Shown here in pieces: positions 26,958 to 45,091 of a stretch of 64,000 nucleotides of DNA. The notes beneath the pieces are model-generated. The model searched no databases. It was not told the DNA's origin and saw only the letters and a list, made by a program, of their open reading frames with translations. The stretch spans positions 4,412-68,411 of the forward strand of contig JAUMUT010000001.1 of NCBI GenBank assembly GCA_030530525.1, in the 5' to 3' direction. This DNA is from Capnocytophaga sp. (GTDB lineage: Bacteria; Bacteroidota; Bacteroidia; Flavobacteriales; Flavobacteriaceae). The position numbers and the translations under genes were made by a program. The number at the start of each line of letters is the position of its first letter. Position 1 is the stretch's first letter.

Positions 26958-26990
26958 TTTATCTTTTTTTATTTTCTGATAAAAATCATT

Positions 26991-27019
26991 TTTGAATTTA
27001 ATAAAAACTTGTACTTTTG
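26991..27019 (+). promoter_or_regulatory. Promoter of the dcuB-asparaginase-porin group
   Basis: TTTG (26991-26994), 17 bases, then TACTTTTG (27012-27019), a full match to the Bacteroidetes consensus. The leader to dcuB is about 50 bases. Confidence 0.7.
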
Positions 27020-27073
27020 TTAAGAATTTAAAGGATTTTGTTATAGAAACCTTTTTATTGATCTGTTAGAATT

Positions 27074-28399
27074 ATGATTTATATTGAATTAATTATTGTT
27101 TTGCTTGCTATTTTCATTGGGGCGCGAGTTGGAGGTATTGGGCTTGGCATTTTCGGAATGATTGGGCTTGGTATTTTAGTTTTCGGCTTTGGGTTAAAAC
27201 CTGGCAAAGCTCCGATAGATGTAATGTTAATGATTGTAGCTGTAATAACAGCAGCATCTTCTTTGCAAGCGGCAGGCGGGTTGGATTATTTGGTAAAAGT
27301 AGCGGAAAAAATCCTTAGGAAAAATCCTTCAATGATTACTTTTTTAGCTCCTTTAGTATGTTATTTCTTTACTTTATTTTCAGGAACGGGACATATTGCT
27401 TATTCTCTTTTGCCCATTATTTCTGAAATTGCTACCGATAGCAAGGTACGACCAGAGCGACCTTTGTCTATCTCAGTAATTGCTTCACAACAAGCCATTA
27501 CGGCAAGCCCTATTTCGGCAGCAACGGCAGCACTTCTTAGCGCAGAATTGTTAGGCTCTAAGGGAATTACGCTTAGTAATATATTAATGGTGTGTATTCC
27601 TGCAACTCTTGTGGGCGTTATTGTTGGAGCAATTGCGGCGAGTTTTATTGGAGTACCGTTAGAGAAAGACCCTGAATATCAGCGAAGACTGCGTGAAGGT
27701 CTTTTGGAAAAAGAAAATGAACACATTAAGAAAATGCCCCCAGAGGAAACCCAAAAAGCACAAATTTCGGTAGTTATTTTCCTTTTAGGCGTGCTTTCTA
27801 TTGTTCTTTTTGGTTCTATTGATAGTATGCGACCTTCTTTTATGGTAGATGGCGAAATAGTGAAACTTGGAATGCCAGAAATTATAGAAATAATAATGAT
27901 GTCTGTGGCAGGATTTATTTTAATATTCTCTCGTACAGATGTTTCTAAGGCAGTGAAGGGTTCTGTTTTTATTGCAGGAATGCAAGCTGTTATCGCTATT
28001 TTCGGTATTGCGTGGATGGGTGATACTTTTTTTAAAGGAAATTTGAGCTTCTTCCAAGAACATATAGAAAGTATTGTAACACATTATCCGTTTTTGTTTG
28101 CGATAGCTCTTTTTGTGATGTCTATTTTGCTATTTAGCCAAGCCTCTACCGTGCAAACACTTTATCCGTTAGGGATACAATTGGGCATTGCGCCGATGGC
28201 TTTGGTAGCGATGTTCCCAGCGGTGAATGGTTATTTCTTTATCCCGAATTATCCAACCGTAGTAGCAGCGATAAACTTTGACCGAACGGGTTCTACACGA
28301 ATAGGAAAATACGTTCTGAACCATTCGTTCCAAATACCTGGTTTTGTGGCAACTATTGTAGCAATAGCTGTGGGTTATTTAATCATAATGTTTATGTAA
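27074..28399 (+). CDS. dcuB: Anaerobic C4-dicarboxylate transporter (Dcu family)
   Basis: Inner-membrane carrier of 441 residues with about ten to twelve hydrophobic segments. RVGGIGLGIFGMIGLGILVF and FSGTGHIAYSLLPIISEIAT are Dcu-family stretches, as is ISVIASQQAITASPISAATA. Dcu proteins exchange fumarate, malate or aspartate for succinate during anaerobic respiration; the aspartate/fumarate preference cannot be read here. The asparaginase gene follows by 60 bp and a porin gene after that, which suggests that asparagine-derived aspartate is imported and succinate exported. DcuA would be an alternative name. Confidence 0.9.
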   Translation: MIYIELIIVLLAIFIGARVGGIGLGIFGMIGLGILVFGFGLKPGKAPIDVMLMIVAVITAASSLQAAGGLDYLVKVAEKILRKNPSMITFLAPLVCYFFTLFSGTGHIAYSLLPIISEIATDSKVRPERPLSISVIASQQAITASPISAATAALLSAELLGSKGITLSNILMVCIPATLVGVIVGAIAASFIGVPLEKDPEYQRRLREGLLEKENEHIKKMPPEETQKAQISVVIFLLGVLSIVLFGSIDSMRPSFMVDGEIVKLGMPEIIEIIMMSVAGFILIFSRTDVSKAVKGSVFIAGMQAVIAIFGIAWMGDTFFKGNLSFFQEHIESIVTHYPFLFAIALFVMSILLFSQASTVQTLYPLGIQLGIAPMALVAMFPAVNGYFFIPNYPTVVAAINFDRTGSTRIGKYVLNHSFQIPGFVATIVAIAVGYLIIMFM

Positions 28400-28459
28400 C
28401 ACCTCTGCCCCTAATCCCTAAACAGAAACTAATAACTAAAATTATATATGTTACCATTA

Positions 28460-29503
28460 ATGAAAAAAATTGCCCTTTCATTACTGATGTTAATGTCTGT
28501 GGCAGTCTTTGGACAAAAACCAAAGATACGTATTTTAGCAACTGGCGGAACAATCGCAGGAGTTAGCAAATCTAATACCGAAACCAATTACAAAGCCGGA
28601 GAATTAGGTATTTATCAGCTATTAGATGCCGTTCCAGAAGTAAAAAACATTGCCGACATCAGTGGAGAACAAATTGTGAAAATTGGCTCACAAGATATGA
28701 ATGATGAGGTATGGCTAAAACTTGCTAAACGTATTAACGAATTGTTAAACAAAGAAGGTTATGACGGCGTAGTTATCACTCACGGAACAGATACTATGGA
28801 AGAAACCGCCTATTTCCTTAACCTTACCGTTCATAGCAAAAAACCTGTGGTGCTTGTAGGAGCTATGCGCCCTGCAACAGGAATGAGTGCCGACGGGCCT
28901 CTGAATTTATACAATGCTGTGGTAGTGGCTACCGACAAAAATGCTGCTGGACGTGGCGTTATGGTTGCTATGAATGATATTGTACTCGATGCCAAAGATG
29001 TAATAAAAACCAACACTACTGCGGTAGAAACTTTCCAAGGGGCAAATTATGGCAAATTGGCATACATCCATAACGGGAAAGTATTTTTCAATCGTACGCC
29101 AGAGAACAAACACACCTATCAGTCTGTATTTGATGTAGATAATCTAAAACAATTACCAAAAGTAGGCATCGTGTATAGCTATTCTAACGTGTCTGAATTG
29201 CCTATGAAGGCTTTCATTGATGCAAAATTTGATGGAATAGTACACGCTGGTGTTGGTAACGGAAATTTATATCATACCATTTTTGATTTGGCTGTAAAAG
29301 CAAGACAAAAAGGCATTCAGTTTGTGCGCTCTTCTCGTGTGCCTACTGGGGCTACTACCTTAGATGCCGAAGTAGATGACGCTAAGTTTCAATTTGTTGC
29401 ATCTCAAACTCTTAACCCTCAAAAGGCTCGTGTTTTATTAATGCTTGCCCTTACTAAAACGAAAGATTGGAAACAAATTCAGGATTATTTTAACGAATAT
29501 TAA
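28460..29503 (+). CDS. ansB: Periplasmic L-asparaginase, type II
   Basis: Hydrolyses L-asparagine to aspartate and ammonia. With the start at 28460 it has 347 residues and a clear signal peptide (MKKIALSLLMLMSVAVFGQ). An ATG four codons earlier would only add MLPL in front of the basic N region, so I prefer the later one. ILATGGTIAG carries the first catalytic threonine, THGTDTMEET the second Thr-Asp pair, and GAMRPATGMSADGP the conserved region that follows. The periplasmic location fits the neighbouring porin (outer membrane entry) and Dcu carrier (inner membrane). Confidence 0.95.
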   Translation: MKKIALSLLMLMSVAVFGQKPKIRILATGGTIAGVSKSNTETNYKAGELGIYQLLDAVPEVKNIADISGEQIVKIGSQDMNDEVWLKLAKRINELLNKEGYDGVVITHGTDTMEETAYFLNLTVHSKKPVVLVGAMRPATGMSADGPLNLYNAVVVATDKNAAGRGVMVAMNDIVLDAKDVIKTNTTAVETFQGANYGKLAYIHNGKVFFNRTPENKHTYQSVFDVDNLKQLPKVGIVYSYSNVSELPMKAFIDAKFDGIVHAGVGNGNLYHTIFDLAVKARQKGIQFVRSSRVPTGATTLDAEVDDAKFQFVASQTLNPQKARVLLMLALTKTKDWKQIQDYFNEY

Positions 29504-29529
29504 TTTTTTTCTAACCAAAATTAATTTTT

Positions 29530-30714
29530 ATGAAATCGTTTTTTTTCGCAATTAGCCTTCTGGCAGGAGGAGTTGCAATGGCTCAGGAAGATTTACAAAA
29601 CCAAATAAATCAATTGCGAGCAGAGTTAGAACACCTTAAAAGAACTCCGCAAATGCATATGGACAAACCACCGATGGATATGCCTCCACATAAAGAAATG
29701 GAAAGTCCTATTCATAAAAAATTTAACGTTTTCTTTAATTTTCAATCTAGCTTTGATGCAATAACACCAAAAGACCAAGATACCGAATTGGGCTTCCGGG
29801 CGCGTCAATTACGTTTGGAAATACGAGGCGATATCAATGACCGTATTTTCTATCGTTTTCGCCATCGCCTTAATCGTAGCAATGATGCGGCTTCGTTAGA
29901 TAATTTGGCTCGTGCTACCGACCTTATGTATGCAGGCTTTAAGCTCAATGACAAATTTACTTTAACACTCGGTAAAATGTGCCAAGCGTGGGGCGGATTT
30001 GAGTTTGACCTCAACCCTATGAACATTTACGAATATTCGGATATGGTAGAAAATATGGATAATTTTATGCTCGGCGGAATGCTTACTTTCGCTCCGAACA
30101 AAAACCACGAATTTAACCTACAAATAACCGATGTTCGTAATAAATCTTTTGAAGATCATTACGGAAATTCTACTGGTATTCAGGCAAGTAAAGCTCCGCT
30201 AACTTATATTTTTAATTGGAATGGTAATTTCTTTAAAAACAATTTGTTACAAACACGTTGGGCTATCGGCTTCCAAAATGAAGCGAAAAACCACATCAAT
30301 GCAATGTACACTTTCGGAACAAAATTGAACCTTTCCAAGTTCCAAGTAGCGTTGGATTATATGTTAGCCGATGAAGAATTGGACAGACTTAAATACACTC
30401 CACTAAGTGGAACACAAGTATTAAAAGATGTTACCTACAATACATTTGTGCTAAAAGCAGAATATCAACCAATAGAAAAATTAAATATTTTTGCACAAGG
30501 AATGTACGAAACCGCTGAAAATAGTATCCAAAATAACGAACGAACTTCCTTGGGCTACTATGCTGGTGTAGAATATTTACCTTTTAAAGACCAAGATTTA
30601 CGATTTTTCTTGGCTTACATTGGCAGAAAATATGATTACAAAAATAATAGTTCATTAGATAATTATACCAACCGTATTAGCCTTGGCTTGATGTATAGAA
30701 TCAAAGCGTTTTAA
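29530..30714 (+). CDS. Outer-membrane porin with a Met/His/Pro-rich linker
   Basis: A 394-residue protein with a signal peptide (MKSFFFAISLLAGGVAMAQ) and a short coiled coil (DLQNQINQLRAELEHLKRT). A linker at about residues 40-60 is rich in Met, His and Pro (MHMDKPPMDMPPHKEM). The rest alternates as beta strands and ends IRLSLGLMYRIKAF-like with a C-terminal aromatic, as in outer-membrane barrels; ELGFRARQLRLEIRGDINDR resembles phosphate-selective porin O/P proteins. Following dcuB and ansB, it probably admits asparagine or dicarboxylates rather than phosphate, but selectivity is inference. A terminator follows 42 bases after the stop. Confidence 0.8.
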   Translation: MKSFFFAISLLAGGVAMAQEDLQNQINQLRAELEHLKRTPQMHMDKPPMDMPPHKEMESPIHKKFNVFFNFQSSFDAITPKDQDTELGFRARQLRLEIRGDINDRIFYRFRHRLNRSNDAASLDNLARATDLMYAGFKLNDKFTLTLGKMCQAWGGFEFDLNPMNIYEYSDMVENMDNFMLGGMLTFAPNKNHEFNLQITDVRNKSFEDHYGNSTGIQASKAPLTYIFNWNGNFFKNNLLQTRWAIGFQNEAKNHINAMYTFGTKLNLSKFQVALDYMLADEELDRLKYTPLSGTQVLKDVTYNTFVLKAEYQPIEKLNIFAQGMYETAENSIQNNERTSLGYYAGVEYLPFKDQDLRFFLAYIGRKYDYKNNSSLDNYTNRISLGLMYRIKAF

Positions 30715-30826: not shown

Positions 30827-30860
30827 TTGGCTACTTTATTTGTTTTTTTTAGTAATTTTG
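30827..30860 (+). promoter_or_regulatory. Promoter of the hybrid two-component regulator gene
   Basis: TAATTTTG (30853-30860) with TTGG (30827-30830) 22 bases upstream. The TTG in this box could be mistaken for a start codon of the regulator; its position in the promoter argues for the ATG at 30884. Confidence 0.55.
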
Positions 30861-30883
30861 TGAGATATTTATTCTATTTTTTG

Positions 30884-33800
30884 ATGAAATTTGTTAAAAT
30901 TATCTTACATATACACTTTCTATTTATCTCTTTTGTGGTATTTTGCCAAGAAGAAAGTAATTATTACTTTAAACGAATTTCAATAGAACACGGCTTATCT
31001 CAGTCGGGAGTAACTACTATTGTTCGTGATTATAAAGGTGTTTTATGGATTGGCACACGACAGGGAATTAACCGAGTAGAACGCAATCATATAAAAAAAT
31101 ACACGGAATATTATATTTTTCATTTATATGAAGATGCTCAGCAACAATTATGGGCTGTAACTAATAATGGCGTACTATTATACGAACCTAAGGAAGATAT
31201 TTTTATACCCAAAACCAAACAGCCTTTGTTTTCCATAGCTGGTAGCCATTTAGGAGTATTTTTCGGAGGCTATTCTGCTATTTATCAATACAATAGTGAT
31301 ACTAAAATTATAGAACGATTACCTTTATTAAAAGAAGAAAAAGCAAAAGACAAAGAATGCCTCATTACTCAAATTATTCCTATAAATGAAGATATTTTCT
31401 TAATAGGTACAGAAAACGACGGCATTTTCCAATATTCTCGGAAAACTCATCTTTTTACTTCATTCATAGAAGAAGCCAAGCCACTAAGTGCATTATTTTA
31501 TGAGGAAAAGCAGAATAATATTTATTTTTCGGTTTTCCAAAAAGGACTTTTTCAGTATTCTGCTTCTGGTGTTTTTTTAGCGCATTATCATCAGCAAAAT
31601 ACCGCTTTGCCCAATGATATTATTTTGGATATAAAACCCTATCGGGGGAATATTTGGCTTGCTACCGATGGTGGAGGAATTTCTATTTTAAATCCTGAAA
31701 ATCATTCCTTCCGAAATATTCAACATAGTGCAGGGAATGTACATTCGTTACCCGTCAATTCTATCACTACTCTTTACGAAGATGCCAACCATAATATGTG
31801 GGCAGGCACAGTGCGCGATGGAGTTTTTCTTTTCCAAGAAACGTATATAAAAACTTATATTGATAGTGCTTTGGGCAAAAATAACGGGCTTAGTGAGCGA
31901 GCTGTAATAAGTATTTTTGAAGCAGAAAACGGCAAAGTTTGGATAGGTACAGACGGAGGTGGAATAAATGAATTTGACCCAAAAACAGACCATTTTACCC
32001 ATCATCTTGCTACGTATAATGACAAAATTACCTCCATCACCAACTTTTCTCCTCAACAATTATTGGTTTCTATTTATGGAAAAGGACTATTTTTATATCA
32101 TATTAATAATCAAACATATACACCTTTTTTGTTAATAGATGAAAACATCAACCAAGAGGAATGCCACACAGGTTTTACTCCTTTTGTTTATAGAATAAGT
32201 AAAAATAATATCCTCATCACAGCGAAAAATTCTTATTTGTACCATATTGATAATAAGCAATTTACAAAAATTCCTTTTGAAAATAATCTTTCTCCAAAAA
32301 ATGCACTTCAACTGAAACTACAAAAAGACGATACGCTATTCTTTTCCAAAGGAAATATTTTATACCAAATGAAGGAAGACGAGGCTACTATTCGTTTTTT
32401 TCTTTCCTTAAATGAAGATTGTGCCATTAGTGCTGTTTGTTATGACAAGGCTCAAAATACGCTTTGGATAGGCTCTTCCAATGGACTTTTTAGCTATTCT
32501 TTGGATACAAAAAAACTAAATATGGTAACGACCAACCATATGTTTCGGCAAATTAGTTATATGCAGTTGGACAACCAAGAACGTTTATGGATTAATGCCT
32601 CCAATGTACTATTTTCATATCATATTCCTGATAAAAAAATAATGATTCGTGATGACTCGGACGGGTTTCTGCCCAATGATGTCCTGACGGGTTATGTACA
32701 AACTTCTGGTAAGGATTTTATTTATATGGGAGGGGTTGGTGGTTTTGTAAAAATCAATCCGTCTATTACTTCTGATACGGATACCAATCCGCTTCTTTTT
32801 GTTCAAAATATTGACTTAAATGGAAAAATTTACACCGCAGAGAATTTTCCAAAAGAAATTCCTCCGTACTTTAACACTCTAAAAATTAATGTTGGGCTGA
32901 ATGAAAAAAATATGTTCCGAAAGATACTTTTTCGGTTCAAAATAAAAAATAATTCGCAAACTTCTGTTATAGAAACGTATGATAATAGCTTGGATATCAT
33001 TTCTTTACTTTCTGTTGGAAAATATCAGGTAGAAGTAGCTTGTATGACAAAGAATGGTTATTGGACAGAAGATGTTCCGTTGCTTACCTTTGAGGTGCTT
33101 CCTGTTTGGTACCAACGATTTTGGTTTATTTTTTTAGTAATTTTAACTATTTTGGCTATTAGTGCAGGAATAATGTGGGGGTACTTTCGCCGTAAAAAAC
33201 AGCAACTCAAATGGCAAATGGCACTTCATCAGCAAGAGATGAATGAAGATAAAATACAATTTCTTACCAATGTAAGCCATGAATTGCGTACGCCACTTAC
33301 GCTTATTTATGCGCCGTTAAAACGTTTGTTAAATAGTAATGAAATAGAGCAATTTTCAGAAATTCAAAAAAATCAATTACAAAGTGCTTTTCGGCAAGCT
33401 AATACGATGAAAAATATCATCAATTGGGTGTTGGACTATAACCGAAGTACCTCGCTTGAAAATACATTACAAAAAACTTATACCGACCTAAATCATCTTC
33501 TTACAGATAGTTGCAAAGACTTTGAACAGGAGTTGGAGGCGAAGAATATTCATTTTGTTTTGCTTTTGGATAAAAATTTGCCTCTTATTGAAGTAGATAT
33601 TCCTAAAATAAGAGTAGTAATTTCTAATTTGTTAATGAATGCTTTAAAATTCAGTAATGAGCATTCCTCTATACGCATACAAAGCTCTTATAATGAGCGT
33701 TTTATACGTTTCCAAATAGAAAATACAGGTATTGGCTTACGCAATATTGATATGGACAAACTTTTTACTCGTTTTGTGCAAGGAAAGCATAACCAAAAAG

Positions 33801-34774
33801 GTAGTGGTATAGGCTTGGCTTATTGTAAAGAACTTATTGACAAACATTTAGGCAACATAGGAGCGTATGAAGAAAATAAACAAACTATTTTTTATGTAGA
33901 ATTACCTTATCTTTCTAATGAGAAAATTTTAGACAAATTTGAAAATGAAAAAGCTCATTCTCAAGCACCTGAAAAGTTAGTAAATACAATAGATACTTCA
34001 TTATATTCTGTACTTTTGGTAGATGATAATTTGGATTTTCTTCATTATTTACATTCCGAATTGCGCTCAATGTTCAAAAATGTTACTAAGGCTACCAATG
34101 GGCAAGAAGCGTTGTTAGTTTTAAAAACTCATCAGCCTGATATTATTATCAGTGATGTTATGATGCCTGTAATGAATGGGTATCAGCTTTGTAAAGAAGT
34201 AAAAGATTTTTTACCTATTAGTCATATTCCTGTTATTTTATTAACAGCAAAGAATGACAATGAAAGTCAAAAAATAGGCTATAAATTGGGCGCAGATGCT
34301 TATCTTTCCAAACCTTTTGATATGGAGCTTTTGCTTTCTGTAATTAGCAATTTGCTCAAACAAAAAGAAGCTATAAAACAACGTTATGATAAAGAAACTC
34401 TCTTGCCCTCGCCCATTGCTACTACTATCAGTAATGCCGATGAGGTATTTATGATAAAACTCAATGAAGTAGTTAAGACGCATTATAACAATATAGACTT
34501 GGATGTAGATACCGTAGCCGATGCAATGGCAATGAGCCGAGCTTCTATTTATAACAAAATGAAACAAATAACAGGTATTGGAATTAACGAATATATTAAC
34601 AAATATCGTATAGAAATAGCTTGTCATTTATTGAAACAAACTGACAAATCTATCACAGATATTGCTTTTGAAACAGGCTTCAATTCTCAGAAATATTTCA
34701 GTACCCTCTTCAAACAATCTACCGGGAAAACTCCAAAAGAATACCGAAATAACACAGAAACACAAACTTCTTGA
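30884..34774 (+). CDS. Hybrid two-component system regulator of the glycan locus
   Basis: Membrane sensor and transcription factor in one chain, 1296 residues from the ATG at 30884. Order: signal peptide (1 to about 21), periplasmic beta-propeller repeats (GVLWIGTRQGINRVE, NIWLATDGGGISILNPENH, KVWIGTDGGGINEFDPKTDH), a Y_Y_Y-type domain, one membrane segment (about 750-772), histidine kinase with NVSHELRTPL (phospho-acceptor His799), an ATPase domain (GSGIGLAYCKELID), a receiver (VLLVDDN; phospho-acceptor Asp1091 in SDVMMPVMNG), and an AraC-type DNA-binding domain (SITDIAFETGFNSQKYFSTL, FKQSTGKTPKEYR). Family knowledge: such proteins bind an oligosaccharide in the periplasm and activate the adjacent susC operon. 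It lies 136 bp before susC on the same strand, and a direct repeat there is the likely binding site. Confidence 0.95.
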   Translation: MKFVKIILHIHFLFISFVVFCQEESNYYFKRISIEHGLSQSGVTTIVRDYKGVLWIGTRQGINRVERNHIKKYTEYYIFHLYEDAQQQLWAVTNNGVLLYEPKEDIFIPKTKQPLFSIAGSHLGVFFGGYSAIYQYNSDTKIIERLPLLKEEKAKDKECLITQIIPINEDIFLIGTENDGIFQYSRKTHLFTSFIEEAKPLSALFYEEKQNNIYFSVFQKGLFQYSASGVFLAHYHQQNTALPNDIILDIKPYRGNIWLATDGGGISILNPENHSFRNIQHSAGNVHSLPVNSITTLYEDANHNMWAGTVRDGVFLFQETYIKTYIDSALGKNNGLSERAVISIFEAENGKVWIGTDGGGINEFDPKTDHFTHHLATYNDKITSITNFSPQQLLVSIYGKGLFLYHINNQTYTPFLLIDENINQEECHTGFTPFVYRISKNNILITAKNSYLYHIDNKQFTKIPFENNLSPKNALQLKLQKDDTLFFSKGNILYQMKEDEATIRFFLSLNEDCAISAVCYDKAQNTLWIGSSNGLFSYSLDTKKLNMVTTNHMFRQISYMQLDNQERLWINASNVLFSYHIPDKKIMIRDDSDGFLPNDVLTGYVQTSGKDFIYMGGVGGFVKINPSITSDTDTNPLLFVQNIDLNGKIYTAENFPKEIPPYFNTLKINVGLNEKNMFRKILFRFKIKNNSQTSVIETYDNSLDIISLLSVGKYQVEVACMTKNGYWTEDVPLLTFEVLPVWYQRFWFIFLVILTILAISAGIMWGYFRRKKQQLKWQMALHQQEMNEDKIQFLTNVSHELRTPLTLIYAPLKRLLNSNEIEQFSEIQKNQLQSAFRQANTMKNIINWVLDYNRSTSLENTLQKTYTDLNHLLTDSCKDFEQELEAKNIHFVLLLDKNLPLIEVDIPKIRVVISNLLMNALKFSNEHSSIRIQSSYNERFIRFQIENTGIGLRNIDMDKLFTRFVQGKHNQKGSGIGLAYCKELIDKHLGNIGAYEENKQTIFYVELPYLSNEKILDKFENEKAHSQAPEKLVNTIDTSLYSVLLVDDNLDFLHYLHSELRSMFKNVTKATNGQEALLVLKTHQPDIIISDVMMPVMNGYQLCKEVKDFLPISHIPVILLTAKNDNESQKIGYKLGADAYLSKPFDMELLLSVISNLLKQKEAIKQRYDKETLLPSPIATTISNADEVFMIKLNEVVKTHYNNIDLDVDTVADAMAMSRASIYNKMKQITGIGINEYINKYRIEIACHLLKQTDKSITDIAFETGFNSQKYFSTLFKQSTGKTPKEYRNNTETQTS

Positions 34775-34910: not shown

Positions 34911-37900
34911 ATGAAAAAAAAACTATTTTTATCCATTCTCTTAATGCTACTTGTTGGTTGGAGCTATGCACAACAACGAACTATTAGCGGAATTATTAGA
35001 GATGCTTCTACCCAAGAACCTCTCTTTGGGGCTTCGGTAGTAATTAAAGGAAGTACCAAAGGTGTGAGTACTGACCTTGACGGAAAATATTCTATTTCTG
35101 TACAAACAGGACAGATTTTAGAAATTACATTCATTGGCTATCAAACCAAAGAAATGAAAATAATAGCCAATACGCCTACCAAACTTAACATTGTGCTATC
35201 ACCAGAAGAAGTAGTTCTTGATGATGTGGTAGTAGTGGGCTATGGGGTTACAAAAAAACGAGACTTGGCAGGTTCTATCACTTCTCTAAAAACAGAGGAT
35301 ATAAAAGCTGGGGTAGTAACCGATATGTCTCAGTTTTTGAAAGGTCGTGCCTCTGGGGTACAAGTAAAACAAAACTCATTAGAGCCTGGCGGAAATGTTT
35401 CTATTCGTGTTCGAGGAGCATCGTCTGTAAGTGCTGAAAATGAGCCTCTTTATGTTATTGACGGATTTCAGACAGATAATATGTCGCAAATCAGTATGGA
35501 CGACATTGAGTCTATTGAAATTTTAAAAGACGCTTCAACAACTGCTATTTACGGAGCAAGAGGGGCAAATGGAGTTATTCTTATTACTACCAAAAAAGGG
35601 AAAGAAGGTGTGTTCAATATTGAATATTCTAACCAAACTTCTTTTAAAAAAATGTACAATCCTTGGGAGTTGCTCGATGCAGGAGAAACCATTGCACTAA
35701 GTCGTCGTTTGTATGAGCAAGACCCTACCATTGCATCTAGCACTTGGACAGCAGAACAAGCCAAATACAGAGGCAAAGGTACAGATTGGCTAAAAGAAAC
35801 CACTCGTAGTACCTTTACAGTGCTTCATCAATTATCTGTTTCAGGAGGTACAGAAAGGCTTTCTGCTTTTGCATCAGCAAGTTACCTTAACGAACCTGGT
35901 ATTTTGCTTAATACGGATTATGACCGATTTGGAGGACGAACAAATATTCAGTACAAAATAAGCCCTAATATTCGTACAGGTGCCAATGTGAGCTTTTCTC
36001 AGTCTAAAAAGAAATTTTTGGATATGGGAACCATTTCTTCAGATAAAAATATAATGTATCGAATCTTCAATTTAGAGCCTTGGAAAAACAAAGAAGGATA
36101 CGATGTTTTTGGGGTACAAGCACGTCGCCCTGCGGTATTTGAAGAAATGAACGGAGCGCAACTATATCGTTCTTTCAATACAATGTATGCTACTGCTTTT
36201 GTAGATATAGATGTATTGCCTTCTCTTATAGTTAATGGGCGATATACTTATGCATACGACCATTTAAAAACAGAAAAATACTACGACCGCTCTACATCTA
36301 TCGGGTTGGCGCGTAAAGGAGAAGCTTTTTTGAGCCACGAAGAAAATATTAAGCATCAATTGGAAGCTGTTGCTACATATCATCCTGAAATTAATGATAA
36401 AAATGATTTGAAAATCATTGCTGGTACATCTTATATTCTGCAAAAAGGAAAAGGCGATGAAACACAAGCGTATGGTTTTGCTTCAGATGTATTTTCATTT
36501 AAAAACATAGGAGCAGCTAAGCACTTGGACTGGATAGGCTCTGGCGAATCTTCTTTGAAAAAATCTTCTTTCTTCGGTCGTGCCGAATATGTTTTTAACA
36601 ATCGTTATATTATAAATGCTTCTGTTCGTGCCGATGGTTCTTCTGTTTTTGGAGCAGATTATCGTTGGGGGATATTCCCTGCGGCATCTTTGGCGTGGCA
36701 CTTAGGTGAAGAAAATTTTATGGCATTTGCCAAACCAGCTGTTTCTCGTCTGAAATTACGTACCAGCTATGGGCTTAGCGGTAATGATGGTATTCGTTTT
36801 GGATTATCTCAGTACCAATATTCTGTACGTGATGTGTATGTAGGAGGCAGTGGCGTACAAAAAGGTATGTATCCTTCCAATCCGTACAACCCTACTCTTC
36901 GTTGGGAAACTACTTCACAATGGAATATTGGAGCGGATATAGCCTTCTTAAACGGAAGAATTGATGCTAGCGTAGATTACTACATTAAGCATACCAAAGA
37001 CTTGCTTAGCCCCGATGCTATTCACCCTTCTGGTGGCTTCCCAGACTATACCACTCCTGATGGCAGACGCTATGAGTACACCGCTATGATGGTAAATGAT
37101 GGAGAAATAGAAAACAGAGGTATTGAATTTGTTATAAAATCTACTAATTTTAGTAAAGAAAATTTTGTTTGGAATACTTCTCTTAACTTTGCTTATAACA
37201 AAAGTAAAGTACTGAAACTCAATAATGGGCAAGCTCGTTTCCAATACGTACGCCCTCACGGGTCTTACGATTATAAAGAATATATTATCTTAAAAGAAGG
37301 CGAGCCTCTCAGTGCTATTTATGGCTATGTGTTTGACGGAGTAATCCAAGAAGGAGAAACCTATGCTCCACAGCCCAAATCTATCCCTGGCGACCCCAAA
37401 TTTAAAGACTTAAATGGAGATGGCATTATTGACGAAAGAGACAGAACTGTTTTGGGTACAGGTATTCCTAAAACTATCATTGGGCTAAATAATAGTTTCA
37501 CTTACAAAGATTTTGATTTTTCTATCTTCTTTGAAGCATCATTAGGAGGAAAAATGTTAAACCTTACTCGTATTTATTTGGAAGATAATAACCGCCTTCG
37601 TGCCTCACAAGAACGATGGACAAAAGGAGGGCGAGAGCTTACCGATGCCAACGGAAATACTTATATTTCTTCGGGATACCCTTCCAACAACGTGCCAAGA
37701 AAAGGCTACCACAGCAAGGCAGGACTACAATATGGCTCTTACATCAACTCTCGTTTTGTAGAAGATGCTGATTTCTTAAAACTAAGAAATATAGAAGTAG
37801 GATATACTATTCAAGGAAATAAATGGAATTTAAAAGGAATAAAAAATATTCGCTTATCTCTCGGTGCGCAAAATTTATTCACTTTTACCAAATATCAAGG

Positions 37901-38012
37901 ATTTGACCCAGATATTAGCACCAACGGAAGTAGCGCCATCGCACAAGGGCTGGATTTGAATTCTTATCCTGCATATAGAATGATTAATTTAGGAGTAAAA
38001 CTAACTTTTTAA
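34911..38012 (+). CDS. SusC-like TonB-dependent outer-membrane transporter
   Basis: Imports oligosaccharides across the outer membrane using TonB energy; 1033 residues. Signal peptide (MKKKLFLSILLMLLVGWSYA), carboxypeptidase-regulatory-like domain (about 23-98, GIIRDASTQEPLFGASVVIK), the SusC-type motif DDVVVVGYGVTKKRDLAGSI, plug domain (LYVIDGFQTDNMSQISMDDI, then ILKDASTTAIYGARGANGVI), and a large barrel ending in an aromatic (LGVKLTF). It is 9 bp before susD, with which it forms a lidded transporter. The sugar cannot be read from the sequence; downstream enzymes suggest N-acetylhexosamine-containing glycans. Confidence 0.96.
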   Translation: MKKKLFLSILLMLLVGWSYAQQRTISGIIRDASTQEPLFGASVVIKGSTKGVSTDLDGKYSISVQTGQILEITFIGYQTKEMKIIANTPTKLNIVLSPEEVVLDDVVVVGYGVTKKRDLAGSITSLKTEDIKAGVVTDMSQFLKGRASGVQVKQNSLEPGGNVSIRVRGASSVSAENEPLYVIDGFQTDNMSQISMDDIESIEILKDASTTAIYGARGANGVILITTKKGKEGVFNIEYSNQTSFKKMYNPWELLDAGETIALSRRLYEQDPTIASSTWTAEQAKYRGKGTDWLKETTRSTFTVLHQLSVSGGTERLSAFASASYLNEPGILLNTDYDRFGGRTNIQYKISPNIRTGANVSFSQSKKKFLDMGTISSDKNIMYRIFNLEPWKNKEGYDVFGVQARRPAVFEEMNGAQLYRSFNTMYATAFVDIDVLPSLIVNGRYTYAYDHLKTEKYYDRSTSIGLARKGEAFLSHEENIKHQLEAVATYHPEINDKNDLKIIAGTSYILQKGKGDETQAYGFASDVFSFKNIGAAKHLDWIGSGESSLKKSSFFGRAEYVFNNRYIINASVRADGSSVFGADYRWGIFPAASLAWHLGEENFMAFAKPAVSRLKLRTSYGLSGNDGIRFGLSQYQYSVRDVYVGGSGVQKGMYPSNPYNPTLRWETTSQWNIGADIAFLNGRIDASVDYYIKHTKDLLSPDAIHPSGGFPDYTTPDGRRYEYTAMMVNDGEIENRGIEFVIKSTNFSKENFVWNTSLNFAYNKSKVLKLNNGQARFQYVRPHGSYDYKEYIILKEGEPLSAIYGYVFDGVIQEGETYAPQPKSIPGDPKFKDLNGDGIIDERDRTVLGTGIPKTIIGLNNSFTYKDFDFSIFFEASLGGKMLNLTRIYLEDNNRLRASQERWTKGGRELTDANGNTYISSGYPSNNVPRKGYHSKAGLQYGSYINSRFVEDADFLKLRNIEVGYTIQGNKWNLKGIKNIRLSLGAQNLFTFTKYQGFDPDISTNGSSAIAQGLDLNSYPAYRMINLGVKLTF

Positions 38013-38021
38013 CAATAATCT

Positions 38022-39689
38022 ATGAAAACCATATACAAAATATATACTCTGGCAGGAGCTTTAAGCATTTCTCTAACAGCCTGTTCATTAAACGAAGATT
38101 TAACTTCTGTTTATAATGCAGATAATGCTTATACTACCGAAGAAAATGCCCAAGAAGGTGTCAATGGTATTTACAGATACCTCTTAGGGGCTAACCATCC
38201 TGCCACATTTTACATCAATGATATGTCTACCGACGATTGTTATATGTCTGAGGATATTTATGAAACACTTAACGAAAACGGACTTACAAGTGATGTGCAA
38301 TTATCCAAAGCCTATAACGGAAATTGGCAAATGATAGGCTGTGCCAACTCTGCCATTGATAATATTATGCAAATAGATAATAGCCGTTTCCAATCTACAC
38401 AAAAGAAAAATGAGTTATTGGCAGAGGCTCATTTTATGCGAGGATTTGCTTATTATCAACTTACTAATATTTTTTATAGAGTTCCGTTAATTACTAATGG
38501 CTTCTATGAATCTACCGCCAACCCAACGCTTTCTTCCGTAGAAGCATTGGATGACCAAATAGAGCGCGACTTGCTCATAGCTGCTAATAATTTACCAACC
38601 GAATGGAGTGCCTCTTATGAAGGAGCTGCCGGACGACCAACCAAAGGCGCAGCGTACGGATATTTAATGCGCCTTCATATGAGAAAAGCAGGTCGCTTGC
38701 GTGAAGAAGGACAAAGTGCCACTACCTCTTGGCAAGCCGCTCTGAATTATGCAGACCAAGTTATCGCTTCTGGCAAATACGCACTTCAATCTCATATTTT
38801 TGATGTTTTTGACCCAAGTACTTCTGAAAAAATTTATAATAACGAAATTATTTTCGCTGTTCGTGCTAGCGAAACCGCTTCGGCAGGTGCCTCTGACTTG
38901 GCTTTATATTTCACCTCTTGGAGTTATAACTATGGCTGGGACAAGTTCAATATTCCATTGGAAATGTTCTGGAAATATAATTCCGAAGACGAACGCTTAA
39001 CCAAACTCCTTATATCCTCTTTCCCTGATGTGTATAATAGTAATATCGTTTATAAAGCTCCTACCTTAAACGAAATAGGTACTTTGGACAATGAAACCAG
39101 TACCCCCATCGTAAAAGAATTGGCGCAAGTATATACAGATAAATACCATTACCAAAAGGCAGGAACATATAACTACAACACTCCCAATAACTTACCTCTA
39201 TTACGCTATGCAGATGTTCTTTTGTGCAAAGCCGAAATATTGAATGAGCTTAACGGAGTGAATCAGGAAGCGATTGATTTGCTTAACAAAATCAGGGAAA
39301 GAGCTTTTCAAAATAGCAACCATAATTACACCGCAACAGATTTTGCTTCGGCAGAAGATTTTCGTAGTAAATTATGCGATGAACGATTGTTAGAACTCAA
39401 TAACGAAGGCGTACGAAGAATTGACCTTATCCGAATGGGTCTCTGGAAAGACCGCTTAGATGCTTATATGGACGGCATAAAAGCAAAAGCTGAAAAACAA
39501 GAAGAGAATATGAGAGCCAAAAGTGCCAACAATACCTCTGTGGATTTAAGTGCTAAATGGAAACCTTATCCCAAATTTTCTGGCTCACCTCTAAAAATAT
39601 ACGACAAACGAAGATATTACCCTATACCAAAAGTATATAGTAGCAAATATCCAGACTTGGAAAACAATCGTTCTTTTAACGAACAATAA
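38022..39689 (+). CDS. SusD-like glycan-binding lipoprotein
   Basis: Surface lid of the SusC channel, 555 residues. The signal peptide ends in the lipobox LTAC with Cys21. The family's TPR-like helices include NELLAEAHFMRGFAYYQLTN and LPLLRYADVLLCKAEILNEL; the C-terminal part has RRIDLIRMGLWKDRL and KRRYYPIPKVYSSKYPDLEN. SLNED follows the cysteine, an acidic stretch only partly like the surface-export signal. It is 9 bp after susC and 21 bp before the next lipoprotein gene. Confidence 0.95.
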   Translation: MKTIYKIYTLAGALSISLTACSLNEDLTSVYNADNAYTTEENAQEGVNGIYRYLLGANHPATFYINDMSTDDCYMSEDIYETLNENGLTSDVQLSKAYNGNWQMIGCANSAIDNIMQIDNSRFQSTQKKNELLAEAHFMRGFAYYQLTNIFYRVPLITNGFYESTANPTLSSVEALDDQIERDLLIAANNLPTEWSASYEGAAGRPTKGAAYGYLMRLHMRKAGRLREEGQSATTSWQAALNYADQVIASGKYALQSHIFDVFDPSTSEKIYNNEIIFAVRASETASAGASDLALYFTSWSYNYGWDKFNIPLEMFWKYNSEDERLTKLLISSFPDVYNSNIVYKAPTLNEIGTLDNETSTPIVKELAQVYTDKYHYQKAGTYNYNTPNNLPLLRYADVLLCKAEILNELNGVNQEAIDLLNKIRERAFQNSNHNYTATDFASAEDFRSKLCDERLLELNNEGVRRIDLIRMGLWKDRLDAYMDGIKAKAEKQEENMRAKSANNTSVDLSAKWKPYPKFSGSPLKIYDKRRYYPIPKVYSSKYPDLENNRSFNEQ

Positions 39690-39710
39690 TCCATTCTTAA
39701 TATTTCAAAT

Positions 39711-41204
39711 ATGAAAACATATACCAAAACCATATTCTTTACTGCATCACTTCTTAGTTGCATCGGGTGCAGTAAAACCGAACGAGATGGACGTTTTTCT
39801 GACAATCCACTTAGCCAAATAGAAAGCATAGCAGAAGGTTCTCTCAACAATGAACAACAAATAAAATGGAACTTTACCAATACCGATAATTGGATAAGTG
39901 CCAACCAAGGCACACAAGCTGATAACAACCTATCTTCTATCGTAGATAATTCAGATTGTGAAGACGGAAAAGCCCTAAAAATATACACCCAAGCCAATAC
40001 ACAACAAAGACAAAAACTAAAAACCAAACAACAATTTGGTGCAGGGCTATACACTTGGCGCACTTATATTTCTGATTTGGGCGAGGTAGAACGCGTAAGC
40101 ATAGGCTCGTGGCTTTGGAATAGTGATAAACACGAATTGGACTTTGAAGTAGGCTCAGGAACTGCCACCGAACGCACCGCCTTAGGCTTATCTTCAGACG
40201 AAGTTATCGCTTACATCACCAGTCAAGATAATCCTTTTATTCAACAAAAAGTTAAAATTAAAAAAAATGCTTGGCATACTTTCCAGATTAATTTACAATT
40301 GGTAAATGGAAAATATTTCGCTACTTGGAGTATTGACGGAGTAAAATACGCCGCACAACAATTGCAATATGGGCAAGACTATCCTTTCCATATTTTTTGT
40401 AGTACCGAAAATTTAAAATTCATTGGTGATACTTGGCCTTACCAAAACAACTACGGATTGTGGGATTATGTAAGCTACACTCCCTACTCCTACTCTATTG
40501 CTCCAATAGAGCCTTCTACCCAAACCAATCCTACTGATGTAGCTCCTGAACCAGACCCAGGAGAAAGAAAAATTTGGTACTTTAAAGAATTCCCATCAGA
40601 TTGGAACAAATGGACAAATGTTGGCACAGATGGTGTTGCATTCAACAAAATAGAAGACGATAAATTGGTGCTTTCTGTTAATGATTATTGTATTACTTCT
40701 AAAATAGAATACAAATCGCCAGTAAGTTACGGAAAATATACGTGGTCTGTACGTTTTCCTGATGTTTCTGAACTTACAAAAACTACCAAATTCCAAATCG
40801 GTGGTACGCTATACACCACTAATGATAAAAAAGAAGCACACGCCATTACAATGATGGCTTGGTACGGAACAGAAACCGAAAGAACTCGCTTAGGGGCAAA
40901 ACCCAATCAGTTATTATTACGATTGTATTCTGAAATTCCTGGTTATGAAGCCTTTGTAGCTGTTTTAGACCCCGACAAAGACTACAAACTAAGCATTGAA
41001 CTCAAAAAGGTAAGTAATAAATACATTATTGTTTATTCTCTTGATAATGAAGTACTTAAAACCCTTCCTACTAATTACGGAGAAGATACGGTTAAGTTTT
41101 TGTTTATTTCCTCTGCTGAGTCTAACAGAAATTGGATGCCAGGAGAAAAGCTCTACAAAAAAATAGATGCAAAATTCAATTTTATTGAATATATTTCTTA
41201 TTAA
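39711..41204 (+). CDS. Lipoprotein with tandem GH16-like jelly-roll domains
   Basis: A 497-residue lipoprotein; the lipid cysteine is Cys20 (SCIGC) or possibly Cys17 (LLSC). Two similar halves of about 200 residues follow. The first has HELDFEVGSG, in which E142-x-D144-x-E146 matches the GH16 catalytic pattern E-x-D-x-E, and a GH16-type strand NAWHTFQINLQLVNGKYFAT. The second half keeps a parallel segment (MMAWYGTETERTRLGAKPN) but has no E-x-D-x-E. A Pro-rich linker (PSTQTNPTDVAPEPDPGE) separates them. It could be an endo-acting glycosidase with a binding module, or a surface glycan-binding protein, the usual product of the gene after susD. I favour the binding role slightly. An in-operon hairpin follows. 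Confidence 0.7.
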   Translation: MKTYTKTIFFTASLLSCIGCSKTERDGRFSDNPLSQIESIAEGSLNNEQQIKWNFTNTDNWISANQGTQADNNLSSIVDNSDCEDGKALKIYTQANTQQRQKLKTKQQFGAGLYTWRTYISDLGEVERVSIGSWLWNSDKHELDFEVGSGTATERTALGLSSDEVIAYITSQDNPFIQQKVKIKKNAWHTFQINLQLVNGKYFATWSIDGVKYAAQQLQYGQDYPFHIFCSTENLKFIGDTWPYQNNYGLWDYVSYTPYSYSIAPIEPSTQTNPTDVAPEPDPGERKIWYFKEFPSDWNKWTNVGTDGVAFNKIEDDKLVLSVNDYCITSKIEYKSPVSYGKYTWSVRFPDVSELTKTTKFQIGGTLYTTNDKKEAHAITMMAWYGTETERTRLGAKPNQLLLRLYSEIPGYEAFVAVLDPDKDYKLSIELKKVSNKYIIVYSLDNEVLKTLPTNYGEDTVKFLFISSAESNRNWMPGEKLYKKIDAKFNFIEYISY

Positions 41205-41229
41205 TTTATTTTAAAAAAGTATTCTCAAA

Positions 41230-41257
41230 AGGCTGTCTCGCTCCATTGAGACAGCCT
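41230..41257 (+). terminator. Strong hairpin inside the susC operon
   Basis: Perfect 10-bp stem AGGCTGTCTC / GAGACAGCCT with an 8-base loop, in the 76-bp gap before the arylsulfotransferase gene. It is followed by ATTTATTAC, not a clean T run. It may terminate part of the transcripts or protect the 3' end of an upstream message. Confidence 0.6.
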
Positions 41258-41280
41258 ATTTATTACAAAAAATTATAATA

Positions 41281-42693
41281 ATGATGAGAACGTTACACAA
41301 ATATTTTATCATAAACCTTATTGCTTTCTGTTTTTTATCTTGCCAGAAAGATACCGAAGCAGAAAATACCAACCCAAATAGCTTACAAAATTTTGAAGTT
41401 TCTCTTAGTAACAAAAACCATTTAAGAGCAGAAATAAGTGCTACTTTTTCTGAAAATACTTCGTTTTCTATCGCTTATTGGGATATTAATACCCCTTCTG
41501 AAATAAAACAAACCCAAACCTATCAAGCAAACGGAAACATTCATAAAACTATTCTTTTTCTAAAACCAAATACTCAATATGCTTGCAAAATTATTTACGG
41601 AAAAGAATTATCTTCTGATATTAAAACATTCAAAACCAAAGATATACAATCTTTTTTACCCAATGCAACCCTACAAGAAGACAATCTAAAACAAGATATT
41701 GAGGGCTATTTATTGGCAAACAACCGAAGTTCTAATCATATTTACCTAATGGATACCAAAGGGAATGTAGTTTGGTACGAGCCTGTGCCTGATGTTCCCG
41801 CAGTTGTAACCTACGATCCTAAAAATCAGTATTTTTACTTGCTTACCGATGCTCCAAATAATGGTTTATTTGTATTCAATTCTAAAAAATTAAAAATAAT
41901 AGACCTTTTTGGTAATATTATCCTACAAAAAGAGTTTGCCTCTATCCCAGAATTAAAAAATCGGGAAGTGCATCACGAATGTCGCCCTCTCCCCGATGGT
42001 AATATAGGGTTGGTTACCTACATTCATCAAACCATAGACCTCAGTAGCAAAGGAGGTTCAAAAAACGATATTGTAACTGGCGACGGCTTTGTGATTATGA
42101 ACCTAAAAGGAGAAATTATAAAAAAATGGAGTTGTTTTGACTATCTAAATCCGCTCGATTATCCAATCATTACCAATCCAAAAGTAAAAGAAGATTGGAT
42201 ACACGCCAATTCTATCGACCAAGATAGCGAAGGCAATTACTATATGACAACCAATCGCGATAGCGAACTCTGGAAAATTAATGGAAAAACAGGAGAACTG
42301 ATGTATCGTGTAGGCAAAAACGGAACTATCCAACCTTCGGAAAACCTCTTATCTCACGGTATCCATTGTGCCATTGTACAAGCTCCTAATGAAGTATTGG
42401 TCATTGACAACGCCCGAGAAAATAAAACTACGGGTTCAAGAGCTCTTATTTACAAAGTAGATGAACAAAGTAAAACGGCTTCGGTATCCTTAGAAGTAGC
42501 TTTGCCCAAAGGAACGTTTTCTTCTACCCGTAGCAATGTACAACTCATTGACAATCAATATGTACTTTTTGCTTTAAGCGCACAACGAGAAGTATTTATC
42601 ACCGATAAAAATACTACTCCCGAAATAAAACGTTCTCTTTTATTACCTTACACTTTCTATCGTGTAGAGTATATTCCTTCTATTTCCTATTAA
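41281..42693 (+). CDS. Arylsulfotransferase-family lipoprotein, probably surface exposed
   Basis: A 470-residue lipoprotein. The lipobox FLSC places the lipid on Cys21, and the next residues, QKDTE, closely match the QKDDE-type surface-export signal described for C. canimorsus. After a fibronectin-like N region (about 35-118), the rest resembles the six-bladed propeller of bacterial arylsulfate sulfotransferases (ASST). Likely active residues are His231/His232 in REVHHECRPLPDGNIG, His308 in EDWIHANSIDQDSEGN, Arg326 in TTNRDSEL and His359/His362 in LSHGIHCA, parallel to the His/His/Arg/His set of E. coli ASST. Characterised enzymes move sulfate between phenolic compounds without PAPS. Here it lies between a glycan-binding lipoprotein and a GH20 hexosaminidase, so a glycan sulfate ester as donor or acceptor is possible but unproven. 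Confidence 0.8.
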   Translation: MMRTLHKYFIINLIAFCFLSCQKDTEAENTNPNSLQNFEVSLSNKNHLRAEISATFSENTSFSIAYWDINTPSEIKQTQTYQANGNIHKTILFLKPNTQYACKIIYGKELSSDIKTFKTKDIQSFLPNATLQEDNLKQDIEGYLLANNRSSNHIYLMDTKGNVVWYEPVPDVPAVVTYDPKNQYFYLLTDAPNNGLFVFNSKKLKIIDLFGNIILQKEFASIPELKNREVHHECRPLPDGNIGLVTYIHQTIDLSSKGGSKNDIVTGDGFVIMNLKGEIIKKWSCFDYLNPLDYPIITNPKVKEDWIHANSIDQDSEGNYYMTTNRDSELWKINGKTGELMYRVGKNGTIQPSENLLSHGIHCAIVQAPNEVLVIDNARENKTTGSRALIYKVDEQSKTASVSLEVALPKGTFSSTRSNVQLIDNQYVLFALSAQREVFITDKNTTPEIKRSLLLPYTFYRVEYIPSISY

Positions 42694-42704
42694 TTCAATT
42701 AACA

Positions 42705-45032
42705 ATGAAAAAAATTATATTTAGTGTAGTAACACTATGCCTTATGGCTTGTAAAGGAACTGAACCTGTAATTCATTACGAGGTAATTCCGCTACCACAA
42801 TCCATTAGTTATACTCATCAAAAGCCTTTTGAGCTCGATGCTCAAACCGTGATTACGTACCCACAAGGAGATGCCTCACTACAAAGGAATGCGCAATTTC
42901 TCGCTTCTTATCTTAAAGAACTCACAGGGCTCACCCTTACCACTAAACCCAATGTGAACAACGGGAAGGTCATTCATCTTAAAACAGACCTTCAAAACCC
43001 TAACCGTGAGGCGTACCAACTCACTGTAACAAGTGAGCAAATTACGATTAACGGAGCAAGTCCCGCAGGTGTGTTCTATGGCATACAAACCCTGCACAAG
43101 TCGATTGAGGTAGCCCAACCACAAGCCCTATCGTTCCCTACGGCTGTGATAGACGATGCGCCTCGCTTTGCCTATCGCGGAATGCATTTTGATGTGAGCA
43201 GGCATTTCTTTCCTGTTAGCTTTATCAAGCAGTATATTGATATACTCGCCTTGCACAATCTCAATACGTTCCATTGGCATCTTACCGATGACCAAGGGTG
43301 GCGTATAGAAATCAAAAAATACCCTCGCCTTACTGAGGTAGGTTCTACTCGTAAAGAAACGCTTAAAGGGCACTTGTTCAAAGATAAACCTCATCAGTTT
43401 GACGGCAAACCCTATGGGGGCTTCTATACCCAAGAACAGATTAAAGAGATTGTAAAATACGCCCAAGACCGCTATATTACAATTATTCCTGAGATAGATA
43501 TACCTGGGCATACCCTCGCCGTGCTTACCGCTTACCCTGAGTTGGGCTGTACAGGTAAGGACTACGCCGTAGGTACTAAATGGGGGGTGTTCGACGATGT
43601 ACTTTGTGCTGGGAATGAAGCTTCTTACGAGTTCTTAGAGGGTGTATTCGATGAACTTACCGAACTTTTTCCCTCTAAATACATTCATATTGGGGGTGAT
43701 GAATGCCCAAAAACACGTTGGAAAGAGTGTCCCAAATGTCAGGCTAAAATTAAAGCGTTAGGCTTAAAAGGCGATGGTGAGCACACTGCCGAACAGAAAC
43801 TACAAGGCTATGTAGTATCGCGCGTAGAGCAATTCCTTAAAAAGAAAGGGAGAGAAATCATAGGTTGGGACGAGATTTTGGAAGGTGATAACATCTCACA
43901 AGACGCTATTGTGATGTCGTGGCGAGGCACCGAAGGTGGAATTGCTGCAGCACAACGCCACAATCGCGCTATTATGACCCCCCATTACAGTCTCTATTTT
44001 GATTACAATCAAGGCGAAGACCCAACCAAAGAACCCCTTTCCATAGGCGAGTACCTTCCCGTAAAAAAAGTGTATGACTACGAGCCTATCGACCCAAAAC
44101 TCACCCCTGAGCAAGCTAAGTATATCTTAGGAGTACAAGCCAACCTTTGGACGGAGTACATCGAGAACCCTTCTCACGCCGAGTATATGCTCTTACCGCG
44201 ATTGGCTGCCTTAGCCGAGGTACAATGGACGGCTCCCGATAAAAAGAATTTTCCTAATTTCCTAAGACGTCTCGGCAACCTACTCAACTATTACCAAAAG
44301 GAAGGGTATCACTATGCTAAACACGTGTTGGGCATTACCCCTGTCATTCAACCCGCACCAAAGAAAGATGGTATTCAGGTAGAGCTCCTTACCGTTGGTG
44401 AAGGAAAAGTATATTACACTACTGATGGCACTACCCCCGATGCGAGCAAAACGCTTTACACTCAACCTATCAAACTGAGCAATGAAGTACTACTGAAAGC
44501 CGTAGCGATACATAAAGACACCATAAGTGGCATATTTAGCTATCAGTCGTTATTCAACAAGGCTACATATAAACCTATACAGCTACTCACCGAAACCAAT
44601 CCTAAATACACCTTTGGTGGTGCTGCTGCCTTAGTCGATGCCCAAATAGGCGAAGACTCCTATATCGACGGACATTGGGTAGGTTTTCCCGGTAGGGTAG
44701 GAGTAGAAGCGGTGATTGATTTGGGTAAAGAAGAAGAAATTACTAACCTCAAAGCAGGTTCTTTATCCGATACCCCAAACTGGATATTTCCAGCTTCCGA
44801 AGTGGCTATTTACGGCTCTGCCGATGGCAAAAACTTTCAGCTCATCGCACAGCAATCTTTAAGGATAGCCGAGAAGAGCGACCCTATCAAGCGAGTGCCT
44901 ATTAACATTAGTTTTGCTAAAACCAAAGTGCGTTACGTAAAAGTAGTACTCAAAGGTAGCATTATCCCCGAATGGCACGAGGGCAAAGGCACACCAGCTT
45001 TGCTATTTGTAGATGAAATCCAAGTAGAATAA
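42705..45032 (+). CDS. GH20 beta-N-acetylhexosaminidase
   Basis: Removes terminal beta-linked GlcNAc or GalNAc; 775 residues. The signal peptide ends LMAC with Cys16, so it is a lipoprotein. A GH20b-type N domain (about 25-150) precedes the catalytic barrel: FAYRGMHFDVSRHFFPV, NTFHWHLTDDQGWRIEIKKY, IPEIDIPGHTLAVL and IHIGGDECPKTRW, with the Asp332-Glu333 catalytic pair of substrate-assisted hydrolysis. After about residue 555 there is a chitobiase-like C-terminal domain (VYYTTDGTTPDASKTLY), then an F5/8-type C (discoidin-like) domain with GFPGRVGVEAVIDLGKEEEI. It is the last gene of the operon, 11 bp after the arylsulfotransferase gene, with a strong terminator. Base composition is visibly higher in GC than its neighbour. 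Confidence 0.95.
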   Translation: MKKIIFSVVTLCLMACKGTEPVIHYEVIPLPQSISYTHQKPFELDAQTVITYPQGDASLQRNAQFLASYLKELTGLTLTTKPNVNNGKVIHLKTDLQNPNREAYQLTVTSEQITINGASPAGVFYGIQTLHKSIEVAQPQALSFPTAVIDDAPRFAYRGMHFDVSRHFFPVSFIKQYIDILALHNLNTFHWHLTDDQGWRIEIKKYPRLTEVGSTRKETLKGHLFKDKPHQFDGKPYGGFYTQEQIKEIVKYAQDRYITIIPEIDIPGHTLAVLTAYPELGCTGKDYAVGTKWGVFDDVLCAGNEASYEFLEGVFDELTELFPSKYIHIGGDECPKTRWKECPKCQAKIKALGLKGDGEHTAEQKLQGYVVSRVEQFLKKKGREIIGWDEILEGDNISQDAIVMSWRGTEGGIAAAQRHNRAIMTPHYSLYFDYNQGEDPTKEPLSIGEYLPVKKVYDYEPIDPKLTPEQAKYILGVQANLWTEYIENPSHAEYMLLPRLAALAEVQWTAPDKKNFPNFLRRLGNLLNYYQKEGYHYAKHVLGITPVIQPAPKKDGIQVELLTVGEGKVYYTTDGTTPDASKTLYTQPIKLSNEVLLKAVAIHKDTISGIFSYQSLFNKATYKPIQLLTETNPKYTFGGAAALVDAQIGEDSYIDGHWVGFPGRVGVEAVIDLGKEEEITNLKAGSLSDTPNWIFPASEVAIYGSADGKNFQLIAQQSLRIAEKSDPIKRVPINISFAKTKVRYVKVVLKGSIIPEWHEGKGTPALLFVDEIQVE

Positions 45033-45061: not shown

Positions 45062-45091
45062 AATCTCCATTGAAATAATGGAGATTTTTTT
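45062..45091 (+). terminator. Terminator of the susC operon
   Basis: AATCTCCATT / AATGGAGATT, a 10-bp perfect stem with a 5-base loop, followed by T residues. It starts 30 bases after the GH20 stop. Confidence 0.9.

Follow-up and report, generated by a model that had tools for sequence, protein, structure and literature searches.

An arylsulfotransferase-family lipoprotein in a Capnocytophaga polysaccharide-utilisation operon may act on sulfated N-acetylhexosamine glycans

What arylsulfotransferases (ASSTs) do in the cell, and on which natural substrates, is poorly understood (PMC13426309). Among the characterised members, the Bacteroides vulgatus enzyme BvAST has been assigned to the E. coli-type Cluster I, and Cpz4 favours a sugar hydroxyl as its acceptor (PMC13426309), so that sugars are compatible with the ASST fold. 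The sulfate-binding motifs of the 6-sulfo-GlcNAcases include QIPYYINR, YYICR, QFLYFSN and YFPQ...WAC (PMC11659886). Here we describe an ASST-family lipoprotein encoded in a Capnocytophaga polysaccharide-utilisation operon, at positions 34911-45032, all on the + strand, of a 64,000-nucleotide stretch of contig JAUMUT010000001.1 (hereafter the window) from a genome of 2.29 Mb; the nearest named relatives of the gene are in C. periodontitidis, C. sputigena and C. leadbetteri. In the best explanation, to which as a whole we give a probability of about one half, the protein would be a catalytically intact member of the ASST fold, independent of 3'-phosphoadenosine 5'-phosphosulfate (PAPS) and recruited into a glycan-uptake operon, where at the cell surface it would desulfate an N-acetylhexosamine (HexNAc) glycan before the GH20 enzyme of the same operon acts.

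The ASST gene (41281-42693, + strand) encodes a 470-aa lipoprotein with a beta-sandwich domain and a beta-propeller. Its family assignment, proposed earlier in a sequence-only reading of the window, is secure, with a PF05935 match at E=1.1e-26 (94.1 bits against a curated cut-off of 24.2) and profile matches in the PDB to Cpz4 (9kf4, E=6e-29) and E. coli ASST (3elq, E=1e-9). The structure model (pLDDT 90.6) matches best with Cpz4 (Z 33.7 over 335 residues) and E. coli ASST (Z about 30 over about 400 residues), with other propellers at about 21. The comparison with the E. coli enzyme that the same reading had called for gave the same fold, 402 residues of 3elq being aligned with a Z of 30.4 and a root mean square deviation of 3.6, and the N-terminal beta-sandwich and the propeller being shared.

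Alignment with hidden Markov models (HMMs) identified His232 (41974-41976, +) with E. coli H252, His308-x-Asn310 (42202-42210, +) with H356-x-N358, and His362 (42364-42366, +), the predicted sulfo-histidine, with H436; the PDB entry of the E. coli H436N mutant aligns at this same place. These residues are invariant in all 28 sequences of an alignment whose relatives are 23-75% identical to the window's ASST, and 85 of the 86 ASST-like proteins compared overall keep the His/His/Asn/His core. Such invariance among diverged sequences argues for catalysis. The catalytic set proposed from sequence was therefore right in H232, H308 and H362; H359, which it also listed, is not among the conserved residues.

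Its arginine has to be corrected. The window's ASST reads Asn325-Arg326 (42253-42258, +), and an ungapped HMM segment taken alone aligns R326 with E. coli R374. In the alignments with the wider family, with Cpz4 and of a longer homologue against the E. coli enzyme (SSRH on SSRH), the conserved arginine column holds N325, so that R326 lies one position off; position 326 varies, being Arg in six of the 12 closest sequences and Ala, Thr or Asn in the others. All 12 sequences of the Capnocytophaga-Dysgonomonas-Cryptobacteroides group have N325, and all 12 have Arg417 (42529-42531, +), which aligns with E. coli T501; that column was placed via the longer homologue in a region where the alignment is weak (3elq match, E 0.66). 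With N325 and R417 at the columns of Arg374 and Thr501, the window's ASST is, as read from these alignments, a variant inside the fold family and outside the classical E. coli-type active site. Across the 86 ASST-like proteins a basic residue stands at 325 in 45, at 416/417 in 42, at both in seven and at neither in six, and the swap reaches a Fisher p of 6e-11 by raw counts that ignore kinship. On the tree the site changed 7-8 times with no significant correlation, and independent pairs gave two to three opposite changes and none or one of the same kind, which is not significant. A relocation of the arginine from the 325 column to the 417 column is thus suggestive only, a hypothesis and not a result, because no significance is left once phylogeny is allowed for.

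The arrangement SusC-SusD-ASST occurs in Capnocytophaga, Dysgonomonas, Flavobacteriaceae and other genera, and a tree groups all 28 SusCD-type ASSTs in a single, fully supported clade. The sequence-only reading had offered a lack of conservation in the neighbourhood as one refutation of its own, which did not occur. Among 27 relatives with flanking sequence, in which neighbours were found by similarity and in part checked with Pfam, SusC is recognised in 26 loci and SusD in 25. Fourteen loci have GH20, in 12 of them on the same strand and in two divergently oriented; nine have GH123, 23 have one or the other, and only two have a formylglycine sulfatase. The arrangement is rare, being found in a few percent of the sampled Bacteroidota genomes, and a tblastn search against phage returned weak Salmonella matches only.

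Three sub-types can be distinguished. The first, in Capnocytophaga and Dysgonomonas, combines a GH16-like protein, ASST and GH20. The second, found in four genera of Flavobacteriaceae and echoed in L091, combines ASST, a CHR (chromate/sulfate-type) transporter, a PAPS-type sulfotransferase of family PF13469 and GH20; in all, five distant loci have the transporter and the sulfotransferase beside the ASST (L078:7080-9349, L079:6706-8989, L080:6541-8831, L081:6617-8915 and L091:10777-12997). These sulfotransferases have no obvious signal peptide, and a sulfate relay between them, the transporter and the ASST is possible. No PF13469 sulfotransferase was found in the genus Capnocytophaga. In the third sub-type (L084-L090, seven loci) a cytochrome c gene lies directly 3' of the ASST gene and is followed by GH123, mostly with DUF5107, a DUF5107-TPR protein being present in six. 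Apart from these, a second ASST group of about 445 aa lies 3' of a different SusC in L092, L102 and L103, with a SusD-like_2 partner (PF12771, confirmed in L092), without Arg at the 325 column and with Lys at 416.

The gene that follows the ASST gene in the window (42705-45032, +) encodes a lipoprotein with GH20b, GH20, CHB_HEX_C and F5/8 C domains, and its earlier identification as a GH20 beta-N-acetylhexosaminidase holds (PF00728, E=9e-121). It has the catalytic Asp-Glu pair, in GGDE at residue 330, and is closest to PDB entry 6q63. Where Bt4394 has the 6-sulfate-binding YYINR, this protein has YFDYNQ, with D433-Y434 in place of the sulfate-binding N437-R438. The segment aligned at the motif, TPHYSLYFDYNQ, thus lacks the signature of a 6-sulfo-GlcNAcase, although the known motifs are diverse and other solutions are possible. 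On present knowledge the enzyme would need unsulfated GlcNAc, and for a GH20 without a known 6-sulfate motif an upstream desulfating step makes sense.

The sequence-only reading had contrasted this locus with polysaccharide-utilisation loci (PULs) that treat sulfate with sulfatases. The contrast is sound for the operon, in which no S1 formylglycine sulfatase (PF00884 with CxPSR) was found, and has to be qualified for the genome, as three CxPSR sulfatases are encoded at other loci. Because of these three enzymes the ASST is to be seen as an addition to the cell's sulfatase route and not as its replacement, and the idea that an ASST is used since the organism lacks sulfatases is rejected. In the window itself, the start of a CxPSR formylglycine sulfatase gene lies at 63311-64000, running past the window end, about 18 kb from the ASST locus and beside other SusC/SusD pairs.

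Upstream of the ASST gene, 39711-41204 (+) encodes a 497-aa lipoprotein that had been described as GH16-like. Although it has no Pfam family match and no PDB sequence match, its model (pLDDT 85) and structure searches bear out the GH16 fold, with two tandem jellyroll domains that both match GH16 folds at Z 18-20. The structural matches include GH16 endo-acting mucin O-glycanases (6t2o, 6t2p and 6t2s), and laminarinases and lichenases score equally. The GH16 motif ExDx(0,1)E is kept in the N-terminal domain only, as HELDFE (residues 141-146), which is consistent with the GH16 catalytic signature; H141, E142, D144, F145 and E146 are invariant across 16 aligned GH16-like sequences. At the corresponding place the C-terminal domain reads the degenerate HAITMM, and for this reason it is likely an inactive, binding-type copy. 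ASST and GH16-like protein are present in exactly the same six of 20 Capnocytophaga genomes, the pattern to be expected if the module is acquired or lost in one piece. In one Capnocytophaga (L074:4566-9234) the GH16-like gene stands in three consecutive copies, and in others in two, which suggests local duplication.

The mature N-termini were compared with C-X-K-(D/E)2, the measured surface-export signal of C. canimorsus lipoproteins (PMC5080379). The ASST of the window starts with CQKDTE, close to this signal. Its Capnocytophaga orthologs carry CKKDD, CKKDD, CKKDE and CQTKDD from the lipid-bearing Cys, and the three with CKKDD or CKKDE fit the signal fully; we infer that the window's ASST is surface-exposed. 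The GH20 protein is probably periplasmic, because its start, CKGTEP, does not fit.

Taken together, these features would allow the following sequence of events. At the cell surface, the GH16-like lipoprotein would cleave a host-type glycan that contains HexNAc; the surface ASST would then move the sulfo group from the sulfated sugar onto His362 in a ping-pong reaction, and from there to an acceptor; SusC/SusD would bring in the desulfated oligosaccharide; and the periplasmic GH20 would take off the terminal HexNAc. Three points we infer from context only: sulfate donation by the glycan, a HexNAc as the sulfated sugar, and an acceptor other than water. The earlier idea of an ASST working ahead of GH20 is supported in part, with its arginine corrected, by the conserved ASST in a SusCD/GH20 locus, the HexNAcase in 23 of 27 loci, the formylglycine sulfatase in only two, and the YFDY-type pocket of the GH20.

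Several observations weigh against this order of events. The association with HexNAcases is a raw count, taken without a baseline from other SusCD loci, and the genome's own formylglycine sulfatases mean that the cell needs no ASST for desulfation generally. The family arginine (E. coli R374) is Asn in the window's ASST, and with it the chemistry or specificity may have shifted. The locus contains no gene that would make an acceptor, and the genus has no PF13469 sulfotransferase. In distant relatives the ASST gene lies directly 3' of SusD, a place often held by surface glycan-binding proteins.

Three other explanations have to be weighed. The one that survives best, though improbable, is that the ASST works in the reverse direction and passes sulfate from small aryl sulfates, such as host conjugates, onto a phenol or a glycan, its position in the PUL reflecting co-regulation and not glycan desulfation. 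The PAPS-type sulfotransferase and CHR transporter that adjoin the ASST in L078-L081 and L091, as if supplying sulfate, would suit this direction, and a PAPS enzyme feeding an ASST has a precedent in caprazamycin biosynthesis. It is also in agreement with the donors of characterised ASSTs, which are aryl sulfates (PMC13426309), but sulfate added to a glycan would hinder GH20 and GH123, the linkage with catabolic HexNAcases is consistent, and the genus lacks the PF13469 enzyme. Less probable again is transfer to water, whereby the same fold and sulfo-histidine would form a sulfatase without formylglycine. Such an enzyme would take over from the PUL sulfatase, which 25 of the 27 loci lack, and the altered arginine site (N325/R417) could change the choice of acceptor; however, no sequence feature singles out hydrolysis, and the characterised ASSTs are described as transferases between esters (PMC13426309). 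The least probable is a non-catalytic surface glycan-binding protein on the ASST fold, with a SusE/F-like role, which the surface signal, the substituted arginine column and the place directly 3' of SusD in many loci would allow, but in pure binders loss of the core would be expected in some lineages, whereas all 28 diverged sequences keep it unchanged and 85 of the 86 ASST-like proteins have it complete.

The gene order, the strand and the 76-bp and 11-bp gaps around the ASST gene are as the sequence-only reading had them, and Pfam domains bear out its SusC-like TonB-dependent transporter (34911-38012, +; plug and CarbopepD_reg_2) and SusD-like lipoprotein (38022-39689, +; PF07980 and PF14322). 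SusC and SusD are adjacent and accompanied by glycoside hydrolases and a regulator, as in a PUL, and the SusD, GH16-like, ASST and GH20 proteins all have lipoprotein-type N-termini. The gaps from SusC through GH20 measure 9, 21, 76 and 11 bp, and an intrinsic-terminator-like hairpin is predicted at the operon end (45062-45086, +); the short gaps and this hairpin fit one operon. The 76-bp gap 5' of the ASST gene holds a stem-loop (41230-41257, +; 11 pairs, -18.8 kcal/mol, z -4.8). Relatives have hairpins at the matching position with different stem sequences, so that the element is probably genuine and serves attenuation or processing within the operon. Matches to the Bacteroidota promoter pattern were no more frequent than chance. 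The gene 5' of SusC encodes a hybrid two-component regulator (30827-34774, +) with Reg_prop propellers, HisKA, HATPase, receiver and AraC HTH domains by Pfam; it is likely the sensor of the locus, its true start is probably downstream of the listed TTG, and its homologues adjoin the SusCD-ASST block in several relatives.

Elsewhere in the window, 25806-30714, 5' of the regulator, carries in one run purK, an anaerobic C4-dicarboxylate transporter, a type II asparaginase and a phosphate-selective-type porin, which looks like ordinary aspartate/fumarate metabolism. Near ribosomal genes, 22253-24232 (- strand) encodes a 659-aa leucine-rich-repeat protein whose best Pfam match is the LRR domain of EndoS.

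Each component taken singly, be it ASST, PUL, GH16-fold enzyme or GH20, is of a known kind. Open-access full text yielded no description of ASSTs that form a SusC/SusD-linked clade and have an altered arginine site, subscription papers and preprints being outside the search. Through its fixed place next to SusC/SusD and a HexNAcase, the clade supplies a concrete, testable substrate class for part of the ASST family, namely sulfated GlcNAc/GalNAc glycans. A broader proposal, which we regard as doubtful, is that the SusCD-coupled surface ASSTs form a second, formylglycine-independent route for stripping sulfate from HexNAc glycans in Bacteroidota, with the active-site arginine moved between propeller strands and the sulfo group handed to a carrier and not released. 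If this were true, desulfation screens on mucin and glycosaminoglycan-like glycans that are limited to formylglycine sulfatases would miss a route, oral bacteria included; the loci with a PAPS-type sulfotransferase and a CHR transporter could let the cell recover the sulfo group; and the arginine relocation would be a handle on how ASST specificity changes.

The locus can be placed among known systems. Cpz4 (9kf4/9kf6), the Streptomyces ASST-type sulfotransferase, is the best match in sequence and structure and has the same His/Asn/His core, but it serves antibiotic biosynthesis without a PUL and carries Arg where the window's protein has N325 and Gln where it has R417. The E. coli CFT073 ASST (3elq), with which BvAST is grouped, shares the beta-sandwich and propeller and the H252/H356/N358/H436 core, whereas it is about 570 aa long, was tested on aryl sulfates, has R374 and T501 against N325 and R417, and is not known with SusCD. 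The PDB 6q63 beta-hexosaminidase is a full-length GH20 homologue (E=4e-248) with the same YFDY motif and no difference seen in domain layout; we know of no ASST beside its gene. Finally, PULs for sulfated host glycans, such as those of B. thetaiotaomicron, likewise combine SusC/SusD, a regulator, an endo-acting GH16-fold enzyme and an exo-hexosaminidase; in them S1 sulfatases or 6-sulfo-GlcNAcases handle the sulfate, whereas here an ASST stands in that place.

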